A stretch of 64,000 nt of DNA from Periplaneta americana (lineage: Eukaryota > Arthropoda > Insecta > Blattodea > Blattidae). The stretch spans positions 68,514,392-68,578,391 of the forward strand of contig NC_091119.1 of NCBI RefSeq assembly GCF_040183065.1, in the 5' to 3' direction. Made by a program: the position numbers and the translations under genes. This document shows, in pieces, positions 14,989 through 61,180 of this stretch (positions within the stretch are counted from its first letter, which is position 1; each line of letters opens with the position of its first letter). The notes under the pieces were generated by a model. That model worked only from the letters and a program-made list of their open reading frames with translations. It was not told the DNA's origin and did no database searches.

Positions 14989-17900
14989 ACTTACCAGGAT
15001 ACATGGAAGACAAGCCAGGTACAATACCCCAAACCACGCCAGCTACCATGGCAGAACCAATCCCAGCTCACATGTTAGATCCCATGCCACCACCCGTGCC
15101 ACATTCCGTGCCACCACCCGTGCCTCCTCCCGTGCCACCACACGTGCCATCACCCGTGCCAGCACCATCATTACAGAACCCACCAGAAGAAGAAGATGAC
15201 AATAGAACGAAGAGTTGCTGCTGGCGTTGTTTAAGGTATTTATTTTGTGGGCTACTTCCCATGTCGAATCGCAGGCCAGCATCCATGCCAGCGCCTATGT
15301 CATCTCCCATGATAGATTCAATGCCAGCTCCCATGCAAGATACCATATCAGTACCTATTCCAGAAACCATGTCAGCTCCCATGCCAGATCCAATACCACT
15401 ACCAGTGCAAGATTCCATATCAGTGCCTATGCCAGGTCCTATGCCATTACCCATGCCAGCTTCCATGCCAGCAGAAGATAGGCACCGAAGAAGGAATGCC
15501 TGGTGGTCTTGTTTAAGATATATATTTTTTGGGCCACGTCCCGTACTAGATGACGAGACATATTACACGCCGGCACCTATGCCAACTTCTGTGACAGCAT
15601 CCTTGCCAGATCCCATGCCAGTACCCAGACCAGCACCAATTCCATATGATATGCCAGGATCCATGACAGCTCCCATGCCAGATCCAATACCACTACCAGA
15701 GCAAGATTCCATATCAGTGCCTATGCCAGGTCCTATGCCATTACCCATGCCAGCTTCCATGCCAGCAGAAGATGGGCACCGAAGAAGGAATGCCTGGTGG
15801 TCTTGTTTAAGATATATATTTTTTGGGCCACGTCCCGTACTAGATGACGAGACATATTACACGCCGGCACCTATGCCAACTTCTGTGACAGCATCCTTGC
15901 CAGATCCCATGACAGTACCCAGACCAGCACCAATTCCAGATGATGTGCCAGGACCCATGACAGCTCCCATGCCAGATCCAATACCACTACCAGTGCAAGA
16001 TTCCATGTCAGCGCCTATGCCAGGTCCTATGCCATTACCCATGCCAGCTTCAATGCCAGCAGAAGATAGGCACCGAAGAGGGAAAGCCTGGTGGTCTTGT
16101 TTAAGATATATATTTTTTGGGCCACGTCCCGTACTAGATGACGAGACATATTACACGCCGGCACCTATGCCAACTGTGACAGCATCCTTGCCAGATCCCA
16201 TACCAGTACCCAGACCAGGACCAATTCCATATGATATGCCAGGACCCATGACAGCTCCCATGCCAGATCCAATACCACTACCAGAGCAAGATTCCATGTC
16301 AGCGCCTATGCCAGGTCCTATGCCATTACCCATGCCAGCTTCCATGCCAGCTTCCATGCCAGCAGAAGGTAGGCACCGAATAAGGAATGCCTGGTGGTCT
16401 TGTTTAAGATATATATTTTTTGGGCCACGTCCCGTACTAGATGACGAGACATATTACACGCCGGCACCTATGCCAACTTCTGTGACAGCATCCTTGCCAG
16501 ATCCCATGCCAGTACCCAGACCAGCACCAATTCCATATGATATGCCAGGACCCATGACAGCTCCCATGCCAGATCCAATACCACTACCAGAGCAAGATTC
16601 CATATCAGCGCCTATGCCAGGTCCTATGCCATTACCCATGCCAGCAGAAAGTAGGCACCGAAGAAGGAATGCCTGGTGGTCTTGTTTCAGATATATATTT
16701 TTTGGGCCACGTCCCGTACTAGATGACGAGACATATTACACGCCGGCACCTATGCCAACTTCTGTGACAGCATCCTTGCCAGATCCCATGCCAGTACCCA
16801 GACCAGCACCAATTCCATATGATATGCCAGGACCCATGACAGCTCCCATGCCAGATCCAATACCACTACCAGTGCAAGATTCCATGTCAGCGCCTATGCC
16901 AGGTCCTATGCCATTACCCATGCCAGCTTCCATGCCAGCAGAAGGTAGGCACCGAATAAGGAATGCTTGGTGGTCTTGTTTAAGATATATATTTTTTGGG
17001 CCACGTCCCGTACTAGATGACGAGACATATTACACGCCGGCACCTATACCAACTTCTGTGACAGCATCCTTGCCAGATCCCATGACAGTACCCAGACCAG
17101 CACCAATTCCAGATGATGTGCCAGGACCCATGACAGCTCCCATGCCAGATCCAATACCACTACCAGTGCAAGATTCCATATCAGTGCCTATGCCAGGTCC
17201 TATGCCACTACCGATGCCAGCTTCCATGCCAGCAGAAGGTAGGCACCGAAGAAGGAATGCCTGGTGGTCTTGTTTAAGATATATATTTTTTGGGCCACGT
17301 CCCGTACTAGATGACGAGACATATTACACGCCGGCACCTATGCCAACTTCTGTGACATCATCCTTGCCAGATCCCGTGCCAGTACCCAGACCAGCAGCCA
17401 TTCCAGATGATATGTCAGGACCCATGACAGCTCCCATGCCAGATCCAATACCACTACCAGTGCAAGATTCCATGTCAACGCCTATGCCAGGATCCATGCT
17501 AGACCCCATGCTGGTTCCCATGTCTGATTCCATGGCGAATTCCTTGTCAGCAACCTATTCAGATCCCATGCCAGTACCCATAGAAGTCCCTATGCCAGCT
17601 TCCATGCCACCAACCAAGCCAGACCCCATACAAGCACCTATATTAGATCCCATGTCAGATTCCTTGCCATACCCCATTCTAGCTCCAATGGCAACACCTA
17701 TATCAGGTTCAATAACAGCACTCCTGCCAGATCCTATACAAGCTTCCATGCCATCACCCATTCCAGATTCCTTGCGAGAACGCATGCTAGCTCCAGTGTC
17801 TGATGCCATGCCGGCTCCCATGTCGGATTCCTTGCCATCACCCATGATAGATGCCTTGTCAGATTCCATCTCGCCAACCAAGCCAGACCCCATACCAGAT

Positions 17901-18905
17901 TCCATGCCTACTTCCATGCCGGATTCCTTGCCATCACCCATGCTAGATGCCTTGTCAGATTCCATGCCACCAACTAAGCCAGACACCATACCGGATCCCA
18001 TGCCTGCTTCCATGCCGGATTCCTTGGAATCACCCATGCTAGATGCCTTGTCAGATTCCATGCCACCAACCAAGCCAGACCCCATACCAGATCCCATGCC
18101 TACTTCCATGCCGGATTCCTTGCCATCACCCATGCTATGTGCCTTGTCAGATTCCATGCCACCAACCAAGCCAGACCCCATACCAGATCCCATGCCGGAT
18201 TCCTTGCCATCACCCATGCTAGATGCCTTGTCAGATTCCATGCCACCAACCAAGCCAGACCCCATACCAGATCCCATGCCTGCTTCCATGCCGGATTCCT
18301 TGTCATCACTCATGCGAGATTCTTTGCTAGAACCCATGCCATCTCCTATACCACCAACTAAGCCAGATCGCATACCAACATCCACATCATTTTCCATGCT
18401 TACTTTCATGCAAGATTCCTTGTCATCACCCATGTCAGATGCCTTGCCATCACCCAGGCCATATCCCGTGCCGGCTCCCATGTCACCAACCAAGCAACAT
18501 CCCATACCAGCATCCATATTAGATTCCATGCCTGCTTCCATGTCAGATTCCTTGCCATTACCAATATTAGCTCCAATGGTAACACCCATGCCAACTCCGA
18601 TACAAGATTCCTTGCCAGTTCCCATGCCAGAAACCAAGCTAGATCCCATGTCAAATGCCTTGTTAACGCCCATGCTAGATCCCATCCAAAATCCTTTACC
18701 AGCGCCTATGCGAGATCCCTTGATAACTCCTCTGCTTGCATCATCGATGGAAGATCCCATGCCTGAATCCTTGCCAGGTTCCATGCCTGGACCATCATTG
18801 GAGCACTTAGCAACGGAAGATGAAGATGAGGAAACAACAACGACGTGTTGGTCTTGTTTAAGGTATATATTTTGTTTGCTTTGTTGTTGTTTGAGGCGTA
18901 AGTAG
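14989..18905 (+). CDS. Giant Met/Pro-repeat exon, Cys-aromatic-basic modules
   Basis: An open frame of about 1,300 codons follows a strong acceptor; the first ATG is 15,003, so earlier coding exons are likely upstream. Composition is dominated by alternating Pro and Met (P-M-P-D/A/S), which favours an extended polyproline-like chain. The frame is punctuated by nine Cys modules: CCWRCLRYLFCG near 15,220, seven near-identical WWSC[LF]RYIFFGPRP modules preceded by basic RHRRRN-type residues, and a terminal CWSCLRYIFCLLCCCLRRK. I infer membrane contact by the Cys/aromatic/basic modules, possibly through S-acylation. All length differences between repeats (282, 294, 303 bp) are multiples of three, and no stop or frameshift occurs, which argues for selection on the frame. 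A GTAAGT donor at 18,898-18,903 overlaps the stop. The exon from 14,989 to 18,897 is 3,909 bp, a symmetric 1-1 exon, so the transcript may continue. I do not recognise the family. Confidence 0.75.
15501..17530 (+). repeat. Seven tandem ~294-bp coding repeats
   Basis: Copies of the WWSC module start at 15,501, 15,795, 16,089, 16,392, 16,674, 16,968 and 17,262. Differences are mainly single bases plus in-frame gain or loss of ASMP or one Ser codon. The high identity suggests recent amplification or gene conversion. A diverged eighth unit precedes them (about 15,210-15,500). Confidence 0.95.
17530..18790 (+). repeat. Degenerate Met/Pro/Ser coding repeats
   Basis: A second repeat type within the same exon, with units of very roughly 85-110 bp built on PDSLPSPML, DALSDSMPPTKPD and PIPDPMP. 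It is less uniform than the 294-bp array and carries no Cys module until the C-terminal tail. Confidence 0.85.
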
Positions 18906-19700
18906 TATAAATATTGTACTTCTAAGAGCCATTTTCAGATAGATTGCCCTCTGAGTGTTCCCATGTTTCTCTCCCCACTTGTTCATAGTAACGCTTCTGT
19001 TAGAGTAATAGTAATTTATATACACTCCTTAATGTTACCTATCATCAAACCTTTCATTTTATTTGGCGACCTGTTTCTTTATGTTCTAACAATATGTCTG
19101 AATATCACGCTCCGTCCCTTGGTTCCACTCAATATAGCGATAAATAGACACTTGTGGTCGCATTTTCCATTTAAATATTTTGTTTCCCGATAGGCACTTC
19201 ACGCTTAGAAACGTTTGGACCTGTACATTATGAATTAATTATATCTTTATGGCCATACAATAGGAAAGAGATTTACGTTTTTTCTTAGTTCTTTTTTTTT
19301 AACCTCAGTCCTAAGAAATCCTTTTTTCTCTTGCTGTCACTAGAGTGCACTGAAATTAATGTTTGGATGGCAATGGACTTACTGTAAGGTAAGTTCATAC
19401 ATTTGCTTTGTTTTCTTGAATGTAGTTAGTAATTATGAATGGCTAGCAGTTTTTAAAATTATGTGATATTTTGTCTGAAACTACATTAACAACTCCCTCA
19501 AAATCTGTGCTTCAGTGGCTGACCATGACAATATCTTTGAAAAATATTGGAGTGCAGGAGGTCAAGTGATTTTATTGTCAAACGCCTGGTATTAGAAAAC
19601 AACAGCAACATTAAAAACTCCATCCTAGCTTTCAGTTTAATAAGGAAACATGGTAAAAATTTTGAAATATTTTTTTCTAAACTCAATGTTTTAATATATA
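18906..19700. other. 3' flank of the repeat exon
   Basis: AT-rich. No clear AATAAA close to the stop, which again leaves room for a further downstream exon. No other feature is visible. Confidence 0.4.
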
Positions 19701-24712: not shown

Positions 24713-26178
24713 TGGAAATGTAAATTAAAGGGAACAATTAAAGAGCGATTAATAGTCATAAATGTAATTTCGGACTAACAATGTTATATCAAAGGCAACT
24801 GAAGCATGTATCCTTTCGAGAAACGCTAATAAAATTAAATTATTTGCGTTTATATAATCTAAATGGTTACTGTACCAATATTTTAAGTATAACACTGGAT
24901 GTTACTTAATGTTACCGATATTAAATTTACATTGTACACAAAATATTGAGTTTTCTTGCAATTTAAAAAAAAACATACGAAATGGCTTTGGGCAGATGGT
25001 AGTGCCTGAAATAATATACAATAATCGGCATTAACATAACAACATTAGAACAGTTAAATAAATTATTATCAGCTACACAATGTAGTTTCCTATTCGTATC
25101 CATTAGGCCTACATGAGTGCATATGTATTGTACATATGTGTGAAATAATTTTGAAAAGACCAATTTAATAAAGACAAATTCTAGAAAAATTAAATCTACA
25201 GCTACAATTGTAATCGCACCTTAAATACAGGAAGATAAACTAGTTTTATAATATTATAAAATTAGTATAATGTTTGAATGTTGTTAAATCATAATTTCAT
25301 TTTCCAGATAATATTAAATGCTTTGGCATATCATAGTGTTATAGAAGTTTCCCGTTTTCTGAATTACTGTTGTGAACACTGCATCTTGCTAACTGAGAAT
25401 TAACTGCATTCTGCTATTGCCTTCTCGTGCCGTCGTAGTTCTGTAGCTAAAATTGCCCTCAATTCCACACAAGCTTCTATTCAGTAAAATTTGTAATTTT
25501 TATTTACCTTACTCTAAATTACTGTACTTCCTTGATAATTAATCTCTTAGTATTATTTCTCGAAAAACTTATTGCTATATAATTCCTAATCAATAGGGAA
25601 AACTCGGCTAATTTCGATACACGGATAATTTCCTGGTATTTATTTTTAAATTTACCATGAAATTAAACTAGAAATAAGTGTAACTTTGGTGACATATATA
25701 AGTGACAGAAGTTGTACTATAAAATAGATTTTGTTCACTGCGCTCTTGCAATAACATGAGCGGTTCTTTTGGAAATTACTTCAAGAGATTTGTAGCTTTG
25801 AATTTGTGAGTGAATACAACATCCGATTTCCTTTGTTAAATGAAGAATATTTGCTGCTTTTTGTGGTCCAAATAATTTTAAATGATAAGTATTACCATTG
25901 TATACTTCTTCGTGAAAAATATATGCTTATCAATGCACTGATTATGTAGCAGTATTATCTTGGGATGTTATTTTCTTAGCGTTTTTCTCATTCCACAAGA
26001 CCATTTTTTTTCTTTAAATTTCTTTATGGTATAACAATACTGTCTGGTGGAAGAAATAAAAACTGCATGAAACGTACTTACAAATTACAGGTAATCAGGG
26101 TAAAACGTAGAAAGAAATACAACAAAAATGATATGAAAGGGCAATTTAATATGTTTGAACAAAGGAAAACTGCTGTAT
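24227..26178. other. AT-rich spacer with T28 run
   Basis: No coding or RNA signal in about 1.95 kb. The only structure is an uninterrupted T28 run at 24,686-24,713, possibly a reversed poly(A) of a decayed insertion. Confidence 0.45.
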
Positions 26179-26832
26179 CCAGGACCAGGACCAGGACCAG
26201 GACCAGGACCAGGACCAGAACCAGGACCAGGACCAGGACCCGGACCAGGACCAGGACCAGGACCCGGATCAGGACCAGGACCAGGACCCGGGCCCGCCGG
26301 ACCAGGACCAGGACCCGGACCCGGACCAGGACCAGGACCAGGACCCGGACCAGGACCAGGACCAGGACCCGGACCAGGACCAGAACCAGGATCCGGACCC
26401 GGACCAGGACCAGGACCAGGACCAGGACCAGGACCAGGATCCGGACCAGGACCCGGACCAGGACCAGGACCAGAAGCAGGACCAGAACCAGGACCAGGAC
26501 CCGGACTAGGACCCGGACCCGGACCAGGACCAGGACCAGGACCAGGACCCGGACCGGGACCAGGACCAGGACTCGGACCAGGATCAGGACCAGGACCCGG
26601 ACCCGGACCAGGACCAGGACCAGGACCAGGACCAGGACCAGGACCAGGGCCAGGACCAGGGCCAGAACCAGGATCCGGACCCGGACCAGGACCAGGACCA
26701 GGACCCGGACCGGGACCAGGACCAGGACCCGGACCAGGACCAGGACCAGGACCAGGACTCGGACCAGGACCAGGACCCGGACCAGGACCAGGACCAGGAC
26801 CCGGACCCGGACAAGGACCAGGACCAGGACCA
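26179..26832. repeat. GGACCA hexamer satellite
   Basis: About 109 six-base units of GGACCA with interspersed GGACCC, GGATCC and GGACCT-type variants. Because the period is a multiple of three and the unit lacks stops, frames on both strands stay open (Gly-Pro, Arg-Thr and Val-Leu runs). These open frames are an effect of the satellite, not genes. Confidence 0.97.
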
Positions 26833-27194
26833 GAGATAATACATAGGCTACTTCTTTCAACCCCCCTTTTTCTCTAATATTCACTAAAATCTTAATTTCA
26901 CTTTGTCTATACATTATCATATTGTGTCATTTACCCTATTTTTTTCATTGACCTTTTCTCCTATTTTTCTTTTATATTATTTTACTGTTACAAAGTTCAA
27001 ATTTTAGCACCACTTTCTTGTTGTCACTTATTCAATTCTCTTAACACTTTTTCGCTATTATTATTCACTCTTGCTATTTGCGCTCATTTTCAGTTTTTCA
27101 CTACTCCACCTACACATAAGTTTTCTTTCTCATTATTCTCACTTCCAATAAATAGGCCTACTTATATTTTTTCTCTATTCATTTGATTCTACAC

Positions 27195-47230: not shown

Positions 47231-50059
47231 CCTCTACACATTCCTCAAAATTTTTGCACATATTTGTTAACACACTGTATATGCGTGTATGTGTATGTAG
47301 TGGACAGATGGACAAGGGTCTTACTGATTTAACACAGCTATTATGTGAGGCTGGGTTGATTCTCAGAACCTCACTCTTTATTATGCTAGTACACATTCTA
47401 ATTTAAACTCTACAGTAAAGTTCTGTTATTACTTTTCTTCGGCTTCTTTCGAAGCTTTAGTCTTTTCCCGGAATTCTTCCTAAATTAAAGGAAGTTTTTG
47501 TTGATAAGGTTTCACGTGTGTCCTACTTTTCGAATACTCTAGTCACTCCTAACTATCCTATCTCTGTGAGCGCAGCGACACTTTAAGCTTTTTCCTTTCA
47601 TGCCAACTTCAGCTGAGTTTGAGGATAAAATGCGTGAAACAAAAGTTTCTGCCAAACTTAAGGAAGCTGTACTTCGCTATTCTTGGCAAGATTCCAGAAC
47701 TTACAGTACATACACTCAAATTATTTTTCTTCCTTCTCTTGTTCCGAACATAATAGGCCTAACTTGTAAATTACAATTTATCATGATGTGTCAAGGTTCT
47801 CTTGCAACTCAATCGTCTCACAAATTCCAATTATAAAACCGAGATCCTATCAGTAGAAATATTTATCAAACATGTGGTTAAAAGAAGTGCTTCATATCAT
47901 AAAATTCTCTTCATGTAATGAGAATCTCAAAGGCAGACAAAATTTTAGACAAAAATTTTGAAATTTGTGGAAAGAGTAGCGATTTTCCAAGATGCCATTT
48001 AAATTTACAAAAACGTTAGTAATTCTTATATTTCTTAACCAGATTCGATTAAACTTTCTACAGAGAATATTTATACAGCATTATAACTGTAAAAATATTC
48101 AGGTCTTTAGTTTGAAAATTTTAGGAAATTGAAACTGCACTTCAATGTATTCTTAAGTTAATATTTAATTTAAATATACATTTATTAATTTATTACAATT
48201 ACAGTTAGTAAAATAAGAAAACCACAAAAATACGTATAAAATGTAACAGACACAAAGACACATTAAAACTATTAGATACATAAAACAGAAATATGAGTTA
48301 AAGAATTTATCCCCGTATGAAGAAACGCTCATGGTCGGGAGTTCAAATCCGCGCTGCAGATAAGCAGAAAGAAGAAGACAAAATAAACAAATTAATATAA
48401 GCAATAAAATAGCACAGATTACACAAACAAGAGCCTATATGATAAAGAGTATTCACAATTGAAAACGTTCATAACCAATATTTACTAGTATAATAATATA
48501 AGACTAATATTAACAATTAATTATCTAACCTTATGTTAAGTTCTCTTAATAATTTCTTTAATTTTAAGTTTAAATTTAATCATACTTATGTTAATTGAAA
48601 TAGGGTACTGAGAACTTAATTTGCTGTAAAATTTTAAGCCGCAATTGAAGCCATGTTTAATATCAGCAGCCGCTGAACTTTTGGATACTGGTAAAATGAA
48701 ATAATATGTTTCTTCTCGCATTATAATCATGCAAATATTTGTTGAAAATTTTCTTTTTCTTATGAAAGAAAGTCAGTAATGTATATTTATATATCAGCTC
48801 AAATTTGAAAACGTAAAAATCCAAATAATGAAGTTTAGTAGGGTAATCAAGTAGTTTTTTTCAGACAAATTTTGATTATTCTCTTTTGTAGTAAATCCAT
48901 CGACTTTCTTATGGATTTAGAAACACTGCTCCAACCAACATGCCATAACGTAATACAGATTGCACCAAGGATAAATAAAATTAATCTTAAAATATTAATA
49001 AGAAGGTACGCACGAAGCATAACAAATCTATATACAGGGACATCATTTTATTTTTACTAACATTTTTAATATTAACCTGGCTATACCTTTAGAGAACCGG
49101 AAACACCGTTCGCTACGCCCTTCCACTACTGGAGTTCGATATACTGGCGGAAAACACAAACAAATCACTTTACTAGGTATAGGAGGGAAGAAAAGTACTT
49201 CCACCATATACGTAAACTAGGAAATATCGCGATTTTGAGTTCGATCATTTTCATTAGGTTTTTGTTTAATCAAAATGCAGTACTATATTAACAATGAGTG
49301 TTTTAACTCACGAATTGAGTTAACCATGCGGACGTATTCATTATGCAGTATATATTATACTGTCTACAGCACATTAGCGTACAATTTAGAGAATGAATTT
49401 AAATTGAAAAATAATCATAATATGGATATTTAAACACATTTTTTAAAATGGTGGCCATTCATTTCGATACAGGCTTCAGTTCTAATGTGCATATTATCGC
49501 ACTGTAGAATATTGTACAGCTGTAAAAAGAAAAGGTGGCCGCTCTCCTGAAACAAAGTTCCCTTCGGGTATCTTCGCTACAATTCGGAGACAGGCGATGT
49601 TACATGTTGTTGGACCACGTTGCCTGATATCTACAGTTATAACTGAAGTATTTTGTATATGCCTCTTATTCATGAGGTCCTGCGTTCGACTACAACCTCG
49701 TGCTTTTTATGTTCTTTTTGTTCTGTTTTTGAGAGAGGCAAACCATACATAATGGCTCCTTTCTCTTTTACAATTATTTTAGTAATTAACATCAGGTTCA
49801 TTAATATATTATACCATGACTTTATCATTATGATATTGTGGCTGCAAATGGAAAGAAAAAATATTTTATTCTCAATAAAAATATCTTTCGTGGCATAAAC
49901 AAAACAAATTTACTGGCGTCGGCCTCAAAACATTCAAACAATTAAGCGTTCAGAAAAGAAAACAAAAAACTATAATTCAATACTTAGTCTATCTTCCTCT
50001 TATCTCGATCATATTGTAGTCGAGTGGGCATGGAATTGACTAGTCTTTGCAAATAACGA
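47231..50059. other. Largely featureless stretch
   Basis: No convincing gene in 2.8 kb. An open frame at 47,600-47,836 has no motif. GGGAGTTCAAATCCGC at about 48,340 is B-box-like and could be a SINE scrap. A GC-richer patch at 49,540-49,700 also has a B-box-like GCGTTCGACTACAAC. Neither has an A box that I can defend. Confidence 0.4.
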
Positions 50060-50520
50060 CTGTTCTTAGACACGATATTCCAGGCATTCTGAACATACAT
50101 AGGTGTTCTGTCCATTGGCATGTCTTTCATTGCAAACCCAGCAATCTCCAATCTTTCCTATTTTCTGCCTTCCTCTTAGTCTCCGCATATGATCCACATA
50201 TCCCAATGTCGTCTATTATTCTTTTCAACCAGAGACCCAACCAATTCCTTTTTCTCTTTCTAATCAGTTTCAGCATCATTCTTTCTTCACTCACTTTTTC
50301 AAACACAATTTTATTTCTTATTCTGTCTGTCCACTTCACACGCACCGTTCTTCTCCACATCCACATTTCAAATGCTTCAATTCATTTCTCTTCATTTCGT
50401 CGTAATGTCCATGTTCCTTCCCCATACAATGCCACACTCCACACAAAGCACTTCACTAGTCTCTTCCTTAGTTCTTTTTCCAGAGGTCCGCAGAATATCC
50501 TTCTTCTTCTATTAAAAGCT
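50060..50520 (-). pseudogene. LINE C-terminal fragment, copy 2
   Basis: Minus-strand VKWTDRIRNKIVFEKVSEER and RMMLKLIRKRKRNWLGLWLK, then IDDIGICGSYAETKRKAENR and KDWRLLGLQ. This is the same family as 40,817-41,270, with a deletion between LWLK and IDDI. 5' truncated. Confidence 0.75.
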
Positions 50521-50867
50521 TCCTTTGTTCATGTTTGCAGATTTTTCTTGGGAAGGATAGGCCTAAATGCGGTAACATCCCGTTGCATTCCGCACACCAC
50601 TATCTCTTTCGCATCTTATTAAATTCCAGGGGGCCCAAGCGTGGAGATGAGGAGAGTGGATTTGACTAATTGGGCCCTCCGGACTTCACCGAAAGTCACG
50701 GCAAGGGCTAAATATTAATTCTATCAGGATGTTTGACCCGATCAGAGACCGGGAAATCTGAATTAGCCTTTGCCCCCCGCATCCTGGACTAGCTTCTACG
50801 AATCATCAGAAAATCTTAGAGTGTGATTGGGCCAATTTTTCCGAAAATGTTTCCACACTTTTGCCCT
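50521..50867. other. GC-rich repeat-like block
   Basis: The composition changes sharply at about 50,630. The content (CCAGGGGGCCCAAGCGTGGA, TTTGACCCGATCAGAGACCG) is non-coding and probably the 5' or body part of a larger interspersed repeat linked to the tRNA-like sequence that follows. Confidence 0.35.
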
Positions 50868-50940
50868 CGTAGCTCAGCGGACGAACGTCGGAACTGAGAT
50901 GTCAACGCCTCAGGTTCAATTCCTCGTTACTCCTTTTCAT
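50868..50940 (+). mobile_element. tRNA-derived SINE head
   Basis: GCCCTCGTAGCTCAGCGGAC carries an A-box-like TAGCTCAGCGG. CAGGTTCAATTCCTCG at about 50,911 is B-box-like. CTCCTTTTCATTTT follows and would act as a pol III stop. The T-arm does not pair well enough for a tRNA gene. Confidence 0.6.
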
Positions 50941-50984
50941 TTTATTCTGGTTCAAGATAGTATAAGTAGATAAGAAATGATGGG

Positions 50985-51480
50985 GAGTGACAGGCTCCCA
51001 CAGGCTCCCACAGGCTCCCCATGTGACGTCACAGGGGGCGTGGCCAAAGTATTACGTCGGACGTGGGCGTGGCCAAATTATTGCGTTATGGAGGGGGCGG
51101 GGCTTAAGTTATGACGTCACGGAGGGGGTGGGGGGCTTAAATTATGACGGAAGAAAGGGGTATAACTTAAATTACGTCATAAATGGCAATCTAAGAGTTC
51201 AAGGTGAAAGTGTGACGTCATGCACACGTGCAGGTATGTAATTGAAGTTGTGGCATGACATGTTCATACAAGTTGGGGGGGGTGAAATAAACAAGTTCAT
51301 ACATGTTTATCTCCTCAATGCAGATGCAATGTCTGCTATGTGTGCATATATTATGCTGATTCACGATTGTTCTTGCAGCATCTTATGTTATACAAGGGTG
51401 GAGGTAGGGAGTGACTGGTGGTAGGGAGTGACTGGCGGTAGGGGGTTTTATGTGACGTCAGAAGTGGGCGTGGTGAACGT
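50985..51480. promoter_or_regulatory. Cluster of TGACGTCA palindromes and GC boxes
   Basis: Exact TGACGTCA (CRE/ATF-type) at 51,024, 51,112, 51,213 and 51,453, with near copies at about 51,522. GGGCGTGGCC occurs twice (51,037 and 51,064 regions) and GGGGGCGGGGC once. Preceded by three CAGGCTCCCA units. Dense bZIP and GC-box sites suggest an enhancer- or promoter-like end of the element; function is inferred. Confidence 0.55.
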
Positions 51481-52154
51481 CACATGTGGCTTTTCACGAA
51501 GGGACGTAACTTAAAAGTGTGATGTCATAAATGGCTATCTGACAAGTTCATACATGTTTGAACATCCCATCTGCTACGTGTGCAAATATTATGCAAGCTC
51601 ACATCCGGCGAGTGTGTGAATTGCTGATTAAAGAATTCACTTGTAAATTAAACACATACATTCTTCTTCTTAAGATTCTAATGTAATGGTAATTTAATTG
51701 ATGGGGGAGGGTTGGGTGTTGGAAATTTGAATGGAGGGCGTAAATGGTTGTACTTTCCGATAAAAAATTAATCTAGCACACTTGTAAATTAAACAGGATG
51801 TGGCTGAAGTGATGTTATAAATTTGTAATTGAAGTTAGAAATGGGGGAGGGGGGGGGGTAAAAATTTGAAATACGAACGGCATAACTTAAAGTGTGGCGT
51901 CATAAATTTTTAATTGAAGTTGGAAATGTAATAATTTGAAATGCACATGTTCATACAAGTTTGTATAGTGGGGGGGGGGGAATAGACAAGTTCATACATG
52001 TTTGTATATTTGAAAGTCAACGTGTCATATTACACAAATATTGCATGATGCAAATAATATGCAAGCTGTTAATTCACATCCGGTGAAGACGCAAGTGCTG
52101 AATAATGGTCAGCTATCCAATGGATGTCCTGAAACTGGTTGTACTTTAAGCCAA

Positions 52155-52583
52155 TTGTTGAGTAATTGATAAAAAATATTAAGATTCTAATGTACTGGTA
52201 ATTGAATTGATAAATAGTAATGGGAAATGGAAATTGGAATGCGGGAATTATTGATGGCGTAAATGGTTGTACTTTAAGCCAATTTATAAAAAAAATTAAT
52301 CTAGCACACTTGTAAATTAAACACATACATTCTTCTCATATTATTATTATTCCAATGTAATACATTTAATGTAGATGTATATGTTGTGTAATGCATAAGT
52401 GTGCAAATATTATGCAAGCTTGCTGAATCACTTCCGGCGACGATGCAATTGCTGAGTAATGATAAAAGCATGTTCTTTAAGCACCTGTAACGTGTCATAT
52501 TACACAAATATTGCATGATGCAAATAAAATGCAAGCTGTTAATTCACATCCGGTGAACACGCAAGTGCTGAATAATGGCCACC

Positions 52584-52626
<43 letters not shown>

Positions 52627-53310
52627 GGCTCCAATTTAATACATTTTGAAGTAACATTTATTGGATTGATTAATAATTTAATACACTTTGAAGTAACATT
52701 TATTTGATTTATTTTAAGCCATACATTATTACCGAAGCAGTTCGTAATATAGTAATTGCTTCTTCTTCGTCTCATTATTATTATTATTCGTCATAAAGAA
52801 GATTAAAGTGTGACGTTATAAATTTGTAATTGAAGTTGGAAATGGGTGAGGGCTGTTTATAATTTGAAATACATACGTCATAACTTAAAGTGTGATGTTA
52901 TAAATTTGTAATTCAAGTTGGAAATGGGGGGGGGGGAAATTTGATAAAATTCTAATGTAATAGTAATTTAATTGATAAATAGTAATGGGTAAGGGAAATT
53001 CGCAAGTGTTAATTGAAATTGGAATGGGGGAATTATTGATGGCGTAAATGGTTGTACTTTAAGCCAATTGATAAAAAAATTAATCTAGCACACTTGTAAA
53101 TTAAACACATACATTCTTCTCATATTATTCCAATGTAATACATTTTGAGTGCTTTGTTTAGCGTATTTAATACATTATTACCCACATTCAGAATGTGACA
53201 TTATTATTTCGTAATACATTAATTGTAGCAGATAAATCAATGTAGATGTATATGCATAAGTGTGCAAATATTATGCAAGCTTGCTTAATCACTTCCGGCG
53301 ACGATGCAAT
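52155..53310. repeat. Left inverted arm
   Basis: Matches the reverse complement of 58,980-60,176 almost base for base, from TTGTTGAGTAATTGAT to CACTTCCGGCGACGATGCAA. Differences are mainly microsatellite lengths. The arm itself consists of two about 780-bp degenerate tandem modules. Confidence 0.93.
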
Positions 53311-53812
53311 TTAATATTACATAACAAAACTCTTATCACATTATGCTTTTAAGGTGATATTTGTGAGAAACTTCCAATCATCAGAATATTAAATTATTTT
53401 CTCGAAATCTGCTGAAGCATTTTCGATATCTGCTATGTGATGCAACTCTACATTAACATCCTGTGATTGTTTGACGATTGCCTGCAATGGATTATATTAC
53501 ACAAATTCTGCATGCACATAATAGCTATCTACTATTTTCAGCAAATATTATGCTAGCTTGCAATACCATATCCAACAATTGTTCGAATTGTTGAGTATGG
53601 GAGAATTATTGTGGCGTAGAATAATTTACATTGAAAAAGTTTAGACCTTGGTTGGGATAAGAAGACGCATACGGTGCAAATCTAGCGGAAGAATTATTAG
53701 TTAAAAAATACTATACTCTGACATAAACTGAAATGTGATATGTGTTTGCGAGACATGCAATAACAAGACATGTATGCGATCTGCCCCACGCTAGGATATA
53801 AGGAAGCTTACA
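53311..53812. other. Upstream region of the plus-strand element gene
   Basis: AT-rich. Contains further GCAAATATTATGC-like motifs. No coding block precedes the ATG at 53,813. Confidence 0.5.
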
Positions 53813-55580
53813 ATGAATGCAACCTTATTCGCAATAATGAATTATCTTCAACATTGCAGCGCATATCACATCGAAAGATGCGATGGGTATTTACACATAG
53901 TAACCTGCCTCAACCCCGATCCACGGGAACCTGTGGTTGCAATATACAAGTGCGCGGAGATGTGCCTTGTATATCAGACACGTCATCGCGAAAATGTAAG
54001 CATATTTAACTATTATTAATGTATATTATATATGTACTTTTGTTTTATTCCATATTTACTATATTGATTTTTTATGTTTTTTTCGAATGGTATATTTTAT
54101 TGTTTTATTTTATATCTATTGAAATTATATTATGTATGGCTTAATTCATTTTTAAAAATACATGTTCATGTAGAGTGCTATTGTAATAGCAGCCATTGGA
54201 TTAATATTTCTTTTATTTTAATTTAGATGATGCAGGAGCCGTTGCCTCGGGACGAGAACATGTGGCAGCCAAGGATTGATCATGCAAACGTAAGCACATT
54301 CAACTATATATCTTTATTTCATATTTATTATATTGATTTTTTATGTTTTTTTTCGAATGGTATATTTTATTGTTTTATTTTATATCTATTGAAATTATAT
54401 TATGTATGGCTTAATTCATTTTTAAAAATACATGTTCATGTAGAGTACTATTGTAATAGCAGCCATTGGATTAATATTTCTTTTATTTTAATTTAGATGA
54501 TGCAGGAACCGTTGCCTCGGGACGAGAACATGTGGCAGCCAAGGATTGATCATGCAAACGTAAGTACATTCAACTATATATTTTATTTCATATTTACTAT
54601 ATTGATTTTTTATGTTTTTTTTCGAATGGTATATTTTATTGTTTTATTTTATATCTATTGAAATTATATTATGTATGGCTTAATTCATTTTTAAAAATAC
54701 ATGTTCATGTAGAGTACTATAGTTATTTACTATATTGATTTTTTATGTTTTTTTTCGAATGGTATATTTTATTGTTTTATTTTATATCTATTGAAATTAT
54801 ATTATGTATGGCTTAATTCATTTTTAAAAATACATGTTCATGTAGAGTGCTATTGTAATAGCAACCATTGGATTAATATTTCTTTTATTTTAATTTAGAT
54901 GATGCAGGAACCGTTGCCTCGGGACGAGAACATGTGGCAGCCAAGGATTGATCATGCAAACGTAAGCACATTCAACTATATATCTTTATTTCATATTTAC
55001 TATATTGATTTTTTATGTTGTTTTCGAATGGTATATTTTATTGTTTTATTTTATATCTATTGAAATTATATTATGTATGGCTTAATTCATTTTAAAAATA
55101 AAGGATTGATCATGCAAACGTAAGCACATTCAACTATATATCCTTATTTCATATTTACTATATTGATTTTTTATGTTTTTTTCGAATGGTATTTTTATTG
55201 TTTTATTTTATATCTATTGAAATTATATTATGTACGGCTTAATTCATTTTTAAAAATACATGTTCATGTAGAGTACTATTGTAATATTTTTGTTTTATTT
55301 TATATCTATTGAAATTATATTATGTTTTATGTATGGCGTCATTCCAAAATTCACATGCATTAATAGGTAATAGAAGCCATAATATTTGTTTTTTTCAATT
55401 TAGATTTGTTGCAATCGTATGAACAAACACTTCATCGCGAAAGTGTAAGCACATTTACCTATATATTATTATCTCATATTTACTATATTTATTTTTTATG
55501 TTTTTCAGATGACAGTATCGATGACTAATGATGATGACATAATACCCTGCATTTGTAAAATGTGTAAACAAGAGGTATAA
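53813..55580 (+). CDS. Spliced element gene with triplicated mini-exon
   Basis: Exon 1 (53,813-53,995) encodes 61 residues rich in Cys and His (ERCDGYLHIVTCLNPDPREP, YKCAEMCLVYQTRHREN) and ends at GTAAGC. Three copies of a 63-bp exon follow, each after TTTTAATTTAG and before GTAAGC or GTAAGT: 54,227-54,289, 54,497-54,559 and 54,899-54,961 (begin MMQEPLP, end RIDHAN). A possible 39-bp exon at 55,404-55,442 is in phase only with the weaker GTGTAA donor. The last exon 55,509-55,580 ends DDDIIPCICKMCKQEV and stop, with two close Cys pairs. AATAAA lies at 55,595. All main introns are phase 0, giving about 150-160 residues. I do not recognise the family. Whether all three mini-exons are used is unknown. 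Confidence 0.65.
54021..55270 (+). repeat. Tandem intron-exon duplications
   Basis: Intron plus mini-exon units of about 270 bp repeat; the unit ending at 54,961 is about 402 bp because an extra exon-less part copy lies at 54,590-54,722. A further copy at 55,101-55,119 keeps only the last 19 exon bases and its donor. Confidence 0.9.
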
Positions 55581-55926
55581 AAAGGTCAAATTTTAATAAA
55601 TGCTTTTTCGGAAATAGTGTTGCACTGCAATTTCTTCTATATTAACCATCCATTTCCATCTGACATAGCCAAAGGGTTGGGTTCATTTAGAGTTCCATAT
55701 GGGGAATGGGTTATTAACCTATAACACTTTCCTTTCAAATATTAGTAATCCTTTTCCAATATTAAGAATCGGTATATAGGTTTTCAAATACTAATAATCC
55801 TTAAGAATTGGCGTATATGTTGAGATTATTCTAGACATATAAGTCACAAGAATATATAATTCCAGTAGTAGCTTATTGATTTGGGAGTGGTGGATTCATT
55901 ACATGTTTGTATGATAAAACCCGAAG

Positions 55927-56223
55927 ATGAATGAGAGAATGTTAATGATTAAACTGAACCTAGTCATTGGGGATGGGGATGTGCTTGGTAAAAGGAATGA
56001 ACTTACGTTTGAAGATTATGCAACATGTCGTGAGTCTGATGTCACTACTTAAAAAAAAAAAAATGCTATTACATCATATTTTCACAATGTGTTTACAATG
56101 TGTGTAAATAAAGTGACTTTAAATTCTTTCGATGATAAGAGAGTTGTATTACAAGATGGGATTAATACAGTACCGCATGGATTTTATGAACCCTCATGTA
56201 AAAGAAGGCGTGTGCAAGAGTAA
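55927..56223 (+). pseudogene. 98-codon ORF broken by one stop at an A13 run
   Basis: From ATG 55,927 the frame runs to TAA 56,221-56,223 with one internal TAA at 56,050-56,052, at the start of a 13-A tract. The first part reads IGDGDVLGKRNELTFEDYAT. The second has TLNSFDDKRVVLQDGINTVP and ends EPSCKRRRVQE, a basic tail that could be a nuclear localisation signal. The single lesion next to a homopolymer could be a real nonsense change, a sequencing error, or the end of one ORF. The DDKR-xxx-DG-x-T block faintly recalls C-terminal blocks of proteins of large self-synthesising elements, but I cannot confirm this. Confidence 0.45.
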
Positions 56224-56381
56224 AATGTGTGTATGTAAATAATAATAATGTTGTAATTTATATAGTTTTGATTTAAATGTGTGTATGTAAATAATAATAA
56301 TGTTGTAATTTATATAGTTTTGATTTAAATGTGTGTGTAAATAATAATAATAATGTAGTAATTTATACAGTTTTGATTTAA
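56224..56381. repeat. Three ~52-bp tandem repeats
   Basis: Units beginning AAATGTGTGTATGTAAATAA, the last slightly changed. AATAAA near 56,385 follows and may serve transcripts from the plus-strand genes. Confidence 0.9.
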
Positions 56382-56531
56382 TCACAATAAACCTACAGTG
56401 CTTGTGTATAAATTTGTTTTCATTTCAATACATCACCCTCATCAATCCAACCGATATGTCGAATCGTAATCTTGCGACATATATGCAACCACTTGTCGAA
56501 AATCGTAATCTTGCGACATATATGTAGCAAC

Positions 56532-57350
56532 TTCGACATGGTGTTGCATTATCGCAACACGAATACGATTTTCGACATGGTGTTGCATTATCGCAACACG
56601 AATACGATTTTCGACATGGTGTTGCATTATCGCAACACGAATACGATTTTCGACATGGTGTTGCATTATCGCAACACGAATACGATTTTCGACATGGTGT
56701 TGCATTATCGCAACACGAATACGATTTTCGACATGGTGTTGCATTATCGCAACACGAATACGATTTTCGACATGGTGTTGCATTATCGCAACACGAATAC
56801 GATTTTCGACATGGTGTTGCATTATCGCAACACGAATACGATTTTCGACATGGTGTTGCATTATCGCAACACGAATACGATTTTCGACATGGTGTTGCAT
56901 TATCGCAACACGAATACGATTTTCGACATGGTGTTGCATTATCGCAACACGAATACGATTTTCGACATGGCGTTGCATTATCGCAACACGAATACGATTT
57001 TCGACATGGTGTTGCATTATCGCAACACGAATACGATTTTCGACATGGTGTTGCATTATCGCAACACGAATACGATTTTCGACATGGTGTTGCATTATCG
57101 CAACACGAATACGATTTTCGACATGGTGTTGCATTATCGCAACACGAATACGATTTTCGACATGGTGTTGCATTATCGCAACACGAATACGATTTTCGAC
57201 ATGGTGTTGCATTATCGCAACACGAATACGATTTTCGACATGGTGTTGCATTATCGCAACACGAATACGATTTTCGACATGGTGTTGCATTATCGCAACA
57301 CGAATACGATTTTCGACATGGTGTTGCATTATCGCAACACGAATACGATT
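56532..57350. repeat. 21-copy 39-bp array with hairpin in each unit
   Basis: Twenty-one 39-bp units, nearly identical (one base change in unit 12). Each contains GTGTTGC-ATTATC-GCAACAC, a 7-bp stem with a 6-base loop, followed by CGAATACGATTTTCGACAT. Degenerate units flank both sides (TTCGACATACTGTTGCGTTA; AATCGTAATCTTGCGACATA). The unit length is a multiple of three without stops, so long frames run on both strands; I treat these as by-products, since no splice site or start context supports them. Confidence 0.95.
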
Positions 57351-57604
57351 TTCGACATACTGTTGCGTTATTGCAACGTTTTCGACATAATCCACAATGA
57401 CAAGGACTTAAGGTGAGGTTACTCTCCCATCCCCAATGACAAGGAATTCAGGTTCATTCCAAATAATAACTCATTAAATTCATTTTTTATTATTACTATT
57501 CTCATATTATGCACACTACATACATGTATTGTCTTAACAACCACTTTTGTCCTTGCATCTCACTTGATCACAACCATGAAAATGTCACATTTATTTTCTA
57601 TTTT
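57351..57604. other. 3' flank of the minus-strand element gene
   Basis: Two CCCAATGACAAGGA-like repeats near 57,395 and 57,432. On the minus strand AATAAA at 57,590-57,595 is about 10 bases after the stop. Confidence 0.6.
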
Positions 57605-58542
57605 CTATACACTCAATTGTTGAACAATGGCTTCAATATCCATCACCTCCTCCTTCAATGCGCTATGTTTCCTCTTTTCTCCTCTTTTAGTTGTCTTCTG
57701 AAAACAATAATGTAAATTAGTCATGTATATGCTCTACATAATCACCATTCAATATCAGAACACAAAACATACACTCACCGCTTTATAGTTGGGGCATGTT
57801 TCAATGCATGTCTCCCGCCACAATCTGTTTTTCCTCCTTTTTCCTCTTTTCTCAACACTTTCCGACTTCTGTTAAACAAAAACAATCACAAATATAGCCA
57901 TTTTGAATCACAAATATAGACATACTTCATGTAGGGGAAAAAAACTTACTGCTTTGTAGTTGGGGCAAGCTTCATCACATCTCTTCCGATAAAATCTCAT
58001 TTTAGGTGCTTTGGCAACAATCTCTGGTTTCTGCACAAAAACAAAATAACAAATATCACCATTAAATATATCATAATATTATAATTAATAAAAGCAACAT
58101 AAACTGTACTCACCTCTTTGTAAGTAAGACAGCTGGGATCACACACTTCCCGCCACACATGTAAGCTGGACTCTTTGGGATCTGTGCATTCAATGCGATG
58201 TTCACCGTTACCCAAACAGATATTGTGGTGATATGTGTCCTCATGTGTTGAAGGTGCATTTATAAAACTCATTTCCGTATTACCACAAGGCAACACCAAT
58301 GACCAATCCGTATGTAACTGATTAGCACCATAAATTTTTCTTACCACCTCAGTGTATACTTTCTCAGAATTTATTATATTGTATTTGCGTGTTATTGCAT
58401 ATGGTTCATTTAACCACTCATCTCTCACATCTGGAAAATATGCGTACGTTACCTCAAATGGTACTTTATATCTTTCTTCTTTCAATATTAGTGGATTATC
58501 AATGGCTAGCGCCACATCGTTTCCCATAATTGTGCTATCCAT
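57605..58542 (-). CDS. Four-exon element gene with repeated Cys motif
   Basis: Exons on the minus strand: 58,542-58,114 (143 codons), 58,030-57,950 (27), 57,868-57,779 (30) and 57,697-57,605 (30 plus stop). Every donor is GTGAGT or GTAAGT, every acceptor is AG, and all introns are phase 0, giving a 230-residue protein. The first in-frame ATG (58,542) follows an upstream stop. Exons 1-3 each end in the same motif, [WY]R-x2-C-x3-C-x2-YK: WREVCDPSCLTYKE, YRKRCDEACPNYKA and WRETCIETCPNYKA. Exon 4 is basic, then acidic (KTTKRGEKRKHSALKEEVMD). Exon 1 has DVRDEWLNEPYAITRKYNI and LPCGNTEMSF. No signal peptide or membrane segment is evident. The repeated Cys pairs suggest a metal-binding or disulphide module duplicated exon by exon. 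Family unknown. Confidence 0.75.
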
Positions 58543-58590
58543 AACTGTCAATTATGTTTTCATATCCTCAGCTTTTATATCATTCACCAT

Positions 58591-58730
58591 ACAAACATGT
58601 ATGAACTTGTATATTTCAAACCCCCCACTCCAATTGTAATTACAAACATGTATGAACTTGTATATTTCAAACCCCCCACTCCAACTGTAATTACAAACAT
58701 GTATGAACTTGTATATTTCAATCTCATAAC
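58591..58730. repeat. 51-bp tandem repeats upstream of the minus gene
   Basis: Units starting ACAAACATGTATGAACTTGT at 58,591, 58,642 and 58,693. The same motif, inverted, is found outside the left arm (about 51,290 and 51,985). Placed just upstream of the minus-strand gene start, it may hold promoter elements. Confidence 0.85.
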
Positions 58731-58862
58731 ACATATTTATATTACGAACAGTTTCGGTAATAATGTATGGCTTAAAATAAATCCAATAAATGTTACTTCA
58801 AAATGTATTAAATTATTAATCAATCCTATAAATGTTACTTCAAACTGTATTAAATTGGAACC

Positions 58863-58863
<1 letters not shown>

Positions 58864-58936
<73 letters not shown>
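58864..58936. repeat. (AAT)n microsatellite
   Basis: About 24 AAT units with one break, at the inner border of the right arm. Confidence 0.95.
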
Positions 58937-58979
58937 CGTTCCAGGTGTTTAAAGAACATGCTTTTATCATTACTCAGCA

Positions 58980-59662
58980 ATTGCATCGTCGCCGGAAGTG
59001 ATTCAGCAAGCTTGCATAATATTTGCACACTTATGCATATACATCTACATTGATTTATCTGCTACAATTACTGTATTATGAAATAATAATGTCACATTCT
59101 GAATGTTGGTAATAATGTATTAAATACGCTAAACAAACCATTCAAAATGTATTACATTGGAATAATATGAGAAGAATGTATGTGTTTAATTTACAAGTGT
59201 GCTAGATTAATTTTTTTATCAATTGGCTTAAAGTACAACCATTTACGCCATCAATAATTCCCCCATTCCAATTTCAATTAACACTTGCGAATTTCCCTTA
59301 CCCATTACTATTTATCAATTAAATTACTATTACATTAGAATTTTATCAAATTCCCCCCCCCCCATTTCCAACTTGAATTACAAATTTATAACATCACACT
59401 TTAAGTTATGACGTATGTATTTCAAATTATAAACAGCCCTCACTCATTTCCAACTTCAATTACAAATTTATAACGTCACACTTTAATCTTCTTTATGACG
59501 AATAATAATAATAATGAGAAGAAGAAGAAGCAATTACTATATTACGAACTGCTTCGGTAATAATGAATGGCTTAAAATAAATCCAATAAATGTTACTTCA
59601 AAGTGTATTAAATTATTAATCAATCCAATAAATGTTACTTCAAAATGTATTAAATTGGAGCC

Positions 59663-59735
<73 letters not shown>

Positions 59736-60176
59736 GGTGGCCATTATTCAGCACTTGCGTGTTCACCGGATGTGAATTAACAGCTTGCATTTTATTTGCA
59801 TCATGCAATATTTGTGTAATATGACACGTTACAGGTGCTTAAAGAACATGCTTTTATCATTACTCAGCAATTGCATCGTCGCCGGAAGTGATTCAGCAAG
59901 CTTGCATAATATTTGCACACTTATGCATTTTACAACATATACATCTACATTAAATGTATTACATTGGAATAATAATAATAATAATAATAATATGAGAAGA
60001 ATGTATGTGTTTAATTTACAAGTGTGCTAGATTAATTTTTTTTATAAATTGGCTTAAAGTACAACCATTTACGCCATCAATAATTCCCGCATTCCAATTT
60101 CCATTTCCCATTACTATTTATCAATTCAATTACCAGTACATTAGAATCTTAATATTTTTTATCAATTACTCAACAA
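58980..60176. repeat. Right inverted arm
   Basis: Reverse complement of 52,155-53,310, including the same microsatellite positions (AAT tract 59,664-59,735). Similarity ends abruptly at 60,176, after CAATTACTCAACAA, where unrelated sequence begins. Confidence 0.93.
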
Positions 60177-60499
60177 CTTTGATTATTCCGTCGGTTCGGT
60201 TTTTTTTTGCCACTACTGTACATATTTTTAATACTTTGTACCATAGGGATTATGATAATATGTCATTTGTCTTAAAGATATTATTTTTTTGTAATTAAAG
60301 AATTTTTCATATTTTTATTTATTGCTTTATAGTACATGAAATATCTCATTAATGAGATATTAAAAAATGGCTATGTTACAAAGTGTAATTTAGCGTTATA
60401 TATAAACCCTGTAAATTTCAAGTCTCTAGCTCTAATGGTTTACAAGAAAATTTTCCTTATGCATGAAAAAAATTAACTTGTGGGAATTGAGGTTCAAAC
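60177..60499. other. Flank of the large element
   Basis: AT-rich, unrelated to the left flank. No target-site duplication could be identified against any candidate left end. Confidence 0.45.
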
Positions 60500-60725
60500 T
60501 TTCAACTGCATTTTAGTGGAGTTCTGCACAATATGACGAGTTTTTGTACTATAGCATAATTTAGATGGCAGTGTCCGGTCAAAATTCCAGTTAACCATCT
60601 TAAAATTTCTCCTTTCCAAGCCCAGAAATTGTTCAGTTGATTCAGGTTTAGATTCTCAATAAGGAGTTTAGCCTGTAATATGGTTGGTGTAGATCTACAG
60701 GCTCCTAGTAAACCTTTCATCAGGC
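60500..60725 (-). pseudogene. LINE RNase H-region fragment
   Basis: Minus strand: MKGLLGACRSTPTILQAKLL, then GEILRWLTGILTGHCHLNYA and QKLVILCRTPLKCS. The W-LTG-LTGHC-LN block is typical of the region after RNase H in some LINE polyproteins, usually followed by C-x2-C. Only this piece is present. Confidence 0.55.
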
Positions 60726-60779
60726 TCTCCTTTAGGACTTATTTGATTATACATTTAGAGATGTCAACATACTTGACCT

Positions 60780-61180
60780 TTTTTGGATGAATTTTATCCC
60801 AAACTAACAGAAGAGGAGCGTAATTACTGCTTCATTAAACAAGATGGGAGCAACATCTGACACATCTGAGAGGTCACTTACGCGTATTCATCAGATGTTC
60901 ACTAAAGAACGGACTGTGAGCAAAAGCTTATGGCTACTGCGGTCACCAGATTTGTAGACGTGTGACTTTTATTTATGCGGGTACTTGAAGGGGAAAGTGT
61001 ACGAGCAGAATCCCCATACTATTGATGAACTGAAGAATAATATCAGGAATAGCATCTGCACTATCACCCGTGAGGAATTGGCACGTGTCTATATGAAGCT
61101 GTTAAGACGTGTACAGAAGTGTCTACATGTTGGTGGACGGCACTTTCAACATCTATTACGAAGGTTAGAACTGTACACGT
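60780..61180 (+). pseudogene. Mariner-type transposase C-terminal pseudogene
   Basis: Plus strand: a decayed QDGATSDTSERSL-like block with the second Asp (near 60,840), RIHQMFTKERTVSKSLW, LLRSPDL followed by a stop, then TCDFYLCGYLKGKVYEQNPH, TIDELKNNIRNSICTITREE and LLRRVQKCLHVGGRHFQHLL. The layout is like the copy at 1,962-3,143 but from a different subfamily. One in-frame stop interrupts the third-acid region, and the N-terminal half is missing. Confidence 0.75.

Follow-up and report, generated by a model that had tools for sequence, protein, structure and literature searches.

The closest described systems are the Polintons or Mavericks (polintoviruses, adintoviruses), which, like the family reported here, have inverted ends, duplicate 6 bp of their target and encode a DNA polymerase B, a capsid of the double-jelly-roll type and an integrase-like protein. 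In the present family, however, these genes are divided over two elements of about 11 kb, the arms are longer and there are palindromic derivatives. AG..CT ends are a mark of Polintons, as is protein priming, and there are parallels with adenoviruses. A literature search of titles and abstracts found no segmented or bipartite Polinton.

Bidnaviridae (Bombyx mori bidensovirus) are described as segmented viruses with two linear segments, inverted ends and a polymerase B whose source is held to be Polintons (PMC4061559). They have single-stranded DNA and a parvovirus-type capsid, whereas the lineage here, known from the sequence of one genome, has a Polinton-type capsid that fits the double-jelly-roll model, an integrase-like gene and integrated copies. 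The bidna-like Drosophila Vesanto virus is segmented as well, with inverted ends that resemble one another and several homologues of polymerase B; its segments number up to twelve, each 3.3-5.8 kb long, as against two here, and the portion of that account drawn on here mentions no Polinton capsid or integrase among them (PMC8363768). Palindromic partial genomes are described for adeno-associated virus, as snap-back defective genomes (PMC8235507); this virus belongs to another replication family, and the palindromes here are integrated in the host genome.

The element described here lies in a 64,000-nucleotide stretch of the Periplaneta americana genome (the window). It is probably derived from a bipartite Polinton/Maverick lineage that consists of two separately integrated elements, here called segment 1 and segment 2, and is itself non-autonomous and truncated at one end.

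The element in the window

The element starts at position 50965 (AGTAGATAAGAAATG) and can be followed to 60176 (Table 1). The preliminary description had placed the left bound at 50985 and had taken 60176 for the end of the element; the latter is a truncation, the right arm lacking the outermost 1.19 kb (50965-52154 on the left), and both ends are present in 13 other copies (A-M), unlike in the window copy. The near-identical opposite arms seen in that description are real: the stretches 52155-53311 and 58979-60176 match in inverted orientation over four blocks (385, 358, 288 and 197 nt) at 98-100% identity, and its reading of them as a sign of recent origin or gene conversion was judged right.

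Table 1 Features of the element, in window positions.
Feature	Position	Strand	Basis
Left target hexamer AGTATA	50959..50964	.	Flank comparison with copy C20:2577015-2581061
Left arm (terminal inverted repeat), outer end complete	50965..53311	+	Self-pairing, copy comparison
Spliced left gene with triplicated 63-nt mini-exon	53813..55580	+	Exon reading, copy comparison, genome search
DNA polymerase B C-terminal remnant	55993..56220	+	Protein match at genome C3:68570384-68570611
39-bp hairpin array between convergent genes	56532..57377 (about)	.	Tandem repeat reading
Right gene, 184-aa open frame with first exon	57997..58551	-	ORF reading
Right arm, outer end truncated	58979..60176	-	Self-pairing

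The copy at C20:2577015-2581061 keeps both ends, shares the window's flank on one side and has TATACT, the complement of the window's hexamer, as an exact duplication on both sides. The left flank of the window copy (49500-50964) is also common to C3:102.26M (1.46 kb) and C12:10.42M (1.14 kb) at about 98.6-98.9%, so the locus has been duplicated along with the insertion. Adjoining the insertion, the region of about 50867-50935 looks tRNA-like by eye and is perhaps a SINE; ARAGORN found no tRNA in 50000-61000. Elsewhere in the window, 15001-19000 and 26001-27000 are GC-rich (0.48-0.55, against a background near 0.35), and the latter has an AT skew of 0.37.

The spliced, convergent genes of the preliminary description were recovered, on opposite strands with the array between them. 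The left gene has a candidate exon 1 of 183 nt (53813-53995), three copies of a phase-0 mini-exon starting at 54227, 54497 and 54899, and further candidate exons at 55404-55444 and 55509-55580. A simple join of these loses the frame after the 41-nt exon, which means that the copy has decayed or that parts are missing from the gene model. By eye, AATAAA follows the stop after 15 nt, within the 10-15 bases first reported. The 63-nt mini-exon, with its intron, varies in number: three in the window and at C12:10.42M, two in copy B and seven at C3:102.26M. Genome-wide, the gene gave 12 longer matches (at least 190 bp) and four short ones.

The left gene occupies the position held by the polymerase in segment 1. 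Of a Polinton-type DNA polymerase B gene the window copy retains, downstream of the left gene, only 76 C-terminal codons, which show 92% identity and contain one stop. Left gene and remnant are also common to copy B, so the window copy belongs to a small sub-family that had its polymerase replaced. Neither integrase nor capsid was found in the window copy itself, in agreement with the earlier reading.

The right gene, found in many segment 1 copies, has an open first exon of 143 aa (58114-58542, minus strand), with further small exons downstream recognised by eye only. Its 184-aa frame had no match in Pfam; the first exon gave a single weak PDB match (E=0.11) and a structure prediction with a mean pLDDT of 33.9, a useless model. 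Weak relatives of this gene (32-42% identity) are clustered at C1:203.25-203.31M and C3:54.29-54.46M, perhaps as a host family or old elements. The hairpin array is a tandem repeat of a 39-bp unit. Folded as single-stranded DNA, three units do better than shuffled sequences (z -3.0), with 2 of 200 shuffles equally good.

A genome-wide family with 6-bp target duplications

The search space was the host genome, whose 91 sequences add up to 3,231,669,367 bases; the published assembly is described as 3.23 Gb in 91 scaffolds, built from HiFi long reads (PMC12774602). The left arm gave at least 393 matches (40 of 646 candidates scored), and with 380 occurrences the end motif exceeds chance, its reversed control giving nine. 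Copies A-M (n=13, two ends each, read in pieces) measure 8.3-11.7 kb, and 12 of them have exact 6-bp target duplications (13/14 with the C20 copy; the other has one mismatch). Ends were located in 10 of the 12 segment copies tried, and all 10 have exact duplications. An undivided Polinton of 16.8 kb, C2:102457245-102474059, is flanked by AGCAGC (by eye). Pooled over all complete copies, 24 of 25 have exact 6-bp duplications and one has a single mismatch. The inverted repeat of this undivided element is at least 0.54 kb, against arms of 1.5-4.9 kb in the family; undivided Polintons and the family have similar terminal sequences over the first 15 bases.

The preliminary description had allowed for the inverted structure being an assembly artefact, and long palindromes are indeed hard to assemble. 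We reject this explanation as scarcely credible: many separate copies lie in different flanks with exact duplications of their own, and the assembly was, by the published account, made from HiFi long reads (PMC12774602).

Polinton genes apparently divided over two segments

Segment 1 elements (10.1-11.7 kb, copies C, E and H included) carry DNA polymerase B, and C, E and H also carry the right-hand gene. Segment 2 elements (10.8-11.4 kb, copy I included) carry capsid, ATPase-like and integrase-like genes; copy I encodes a capsid, protease-like and ATPase-like proteins, three other proteins and an integrase-like protein. Counting located copies only, the lengths are 10.5-11.5 kb for segment 1 and 10.8-11.3 kb for segment 2. 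Both have the same plan, an arm, one or more genes, the 39-bp array, one or more genes in the opposite direction and an arm, and a search for polymerase B (polB) in the segment 2 elements I and C2, both covered in full, gave no match. Undivided Polintons of the same genome have polymerase, integrase and capsid together, with the integrase about 0.8 kb and the capsid about 6-7 kb from the polymerase.

The polymerase matches DNA_pol_B_2 (E=1.4e-15) and the capsid of copy I the double-jelly-roll model PF21738 (E=1.4e-46). The integrase matched the Pfam models rve (E=0.015) and chromo (E=0.045) below the cut-off, and the ATPase-like and protease-like proteins gave weak matches only (Pox_A32, E=0.011; S273R protease, E=0.11). 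A 930-aa part of the polymerase matched only Endonuclease_7 in Pfam and nothing in the PDB, where the capsid had no significant match either; viral_contigs, searched with capsid and polymerase, held no relatives. The Endonuclease_7 match (E about 1e-5) lies in the N-terminal part of the polymerase, at L014:1-2790 and L017:3154-4920.

The partition of genes was scored within 20 kb, the rows examined being, out of all matches, 76 of 154 for polB, 54 of 100 for integrase and 37 of 77 for capsid, with short or weak ones left out; candidates scored were 150 of 289 for polB, 150 of 860 for integrase and 95 of 95 for capsid. Among the rows examined, polB lay within 20 kb of none of the 17 capsid rows at least 91% identical to copy I and of 15 of the 17 at 84-90%, and neither integrase nor capsid lay within that distance in any of the 23 polB rows at least 93% identical to copy E. 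For integrase rows at 84-89% over at least 229 aa, polB was present within 20 kb in all 16. Two capsid rows at 84-90% are without polB, and 17 polB rows at 92% or below have neither integrase nor capsid nearby. Two loci without polB are C3:94.05M, which bears a capsid and an integrase 76% identical to that of copy I, and C14:64.53M (capsid 83%, integrase 93%). In the rows examined, complementary gene sets reside on separate elements with shared ends, as in a segmented genome; all Polinton genes are found on one element in the undivided Polintons and not in the divided sublineage.

The arms belong to a Polinton lineage, since complete relatives in this genome have, besides 6-bp duplications, a DNA polymerase B, an integrase-like gene and a capsid of the double-jelly-roll type. 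These genes bear out the virus-like inverted-arm element, kin to DNA viruses, of the preliminary description, and led us to abandon the new class of element that it had proposed. A match of the arms to Polintons had been named there as counting against a new class: the Polinton kinship stands through the relatives' genes, while BLAST of the family arms against the arms of the one undivided Polinton read gave no similarity. A transposon of another kind, such as a foldback or some other cut-and-paste DNA element without kinship to Polintons that picked up Polinton fragments, would account for the very long arms and for palindromes without recognised genes. The same ends flank elements with the Polinton polymerase, or with capsid and integrase, and with 6-bp duplications; target duplications and shared ends largely refute such a transposon, and we reject it as very improbable.

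Segments compared with undivided Polintons

A further explanation is that the segments are unrelated deletion derivatives of an undivided Polinton, which do not cooperate and are sustained by surviving undivided elements. Undivided Polintons with open frames are present in the same genome and resemble the family in end bases 1-15, and deletions and palindromes are frequent in the family. However, polB is open over 1217-1221 aa in seven segment 1 copies (49 of 550 candidates scored), and capsid (401 aa) and integrase (310 aa) are open in four segment 2 copies. The polB dN/dS since the split is about 0.17, a constraint on amino-acid change for which a simple parasite would have no need. In segment 1 the array lies between the polymerase and the right gene, which point towards it, whereas the matches are on one strand in undivided elements, so segment 1 is not a plain internal deletion.

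The two parts also agree in their divergence. For the C-terminal 234 aa of polB, divided and undivided elements differ by a mean dS of 0.38 and dN of 0.063 (88 pairs), and for integrase by dS of 0.31-0.36 and dN of 0.05-0.06 (12 pairs); both segments thus appear to have diverged equally from the undivided lineage, which argues against unrelated derivatives. In the polB tree (234 aa) the undivided clade has support of 100/99, and 10 of the 11 segment 1 rows form a clade at 87/83, the remaining row (C9) falling outside it; in the integrase tree four segment 2 rows and three undivided rows stand apart at 94/92 and 97/94.

Arms and array are likewise common to the segments and absent from the undivided element. 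Arm modules are shared by segments 1 and 2 at 80-98%; within elements, the arms are identical across all 2963 bp read in segment 1 C3 and 99.85% identical across 1973 bp in segment 2 C2. The array unit is near-identical in the window, segment 1 and segment 2 copy C2, with 98% identity between the C2 unit and that of the other two; the unit differs in segment 2 copy I, and the undivided Polinton has its own, different 38-bp unit, adjoining the ATPase gene. On this evidence we regard unrelated deletion derivatives as unlikely.

Segment 1 copies vary among themselves: at C3:20.3M, C7:64.4M, C1:198.8M and C13:4.0M the right-hand gene is not listed. In these four copies, where the polymerase frame is intact or partial, the other arm contains an open, inverted second N-terminal part of polB, of about 610 aa (C3:20338874, C13:4029343, C1:198780767 and C7:64412453); this inverted part is possibly a separate product.

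Palindromes and swapped ends

Near-perfect palindromes make up 7 of the 13 copies, with arms of 4.2-4.9 kb at 95.7-99.8% identity, the pairing in J and K reaching the end of the piece read. Eleven protein queries had no match in palindromes A, D, F, G, J, K, L and M. Inverted pairs also occur with genes: of the polymerase in segment 1 (C10:89.60M), of the capsid in segment 2 (C4:129.66M and C1:115.60M), and in an undivided-type pair at C14:82.86M, whose centre is 98.6% self-complementary over 2695 bp.

Comparison of 95-bp ends showed exchanges between components: the right end of segment 2 C4 is 98.9% identical to a segment 1 end and its left end 97.9% identical to palindrome M, and an end of palindrome J is 100% identical to segment 1 C7b and C16b. 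Five of the 13 ends compared, without gaps, resemble none of six references. Together, the palindromes and the exchanged ends suggest that satellites form by copy-back and that replication takes place in trans, and the graded extension of the arms is what would be expected from copy-back replication of a linear, end-primed genome.

Discussion

We favour a bipartite lineage whose parts work together. The segment 1 polymerase, presumably protein-primed, would start at the ends of every component with these arms, and the segment 2 integrase would insert the components, giving the 6-bp duplications. Packaging of the components may fall to the capsid and ATPase of segment 2, and snap-back (copy-back) replication could generate the long-armed palindromes, which would act as satellites. 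The window copy has lost nearly all of the polymerase gene and has another spliced gene in that position.

That segments 1 and 2 really cooperate seems to us likely; trans-replication, packaging, satellite behaviour and a role of the array are inferences. Undivided Polintons, whose first 15 end bases are similar, could supply proteins in trans, and an undivided member of the divided sublineage may exist among unscored candidates or be lost. The further step, that a transmissible two-segment Polinton virus with copy-back palindromic satellites is, or recently was, present in the cockroach germ line, we put at even chances.

If this is true, genome splitting would have taken place in the lineage from which the bidnavirus polymerase came, and integrating viruses of the Polinton group would have partners resembling defective interfering genomes. 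A single genome assembled from long reads, in which the insertions are dated, contains the undivided lineage, its divided sister and the palindromic by-products, so that splitting, end exchange and satellite formation are open to direct study. Annotation that expects all Polinton genes on one element would class both halves as decayed debris.
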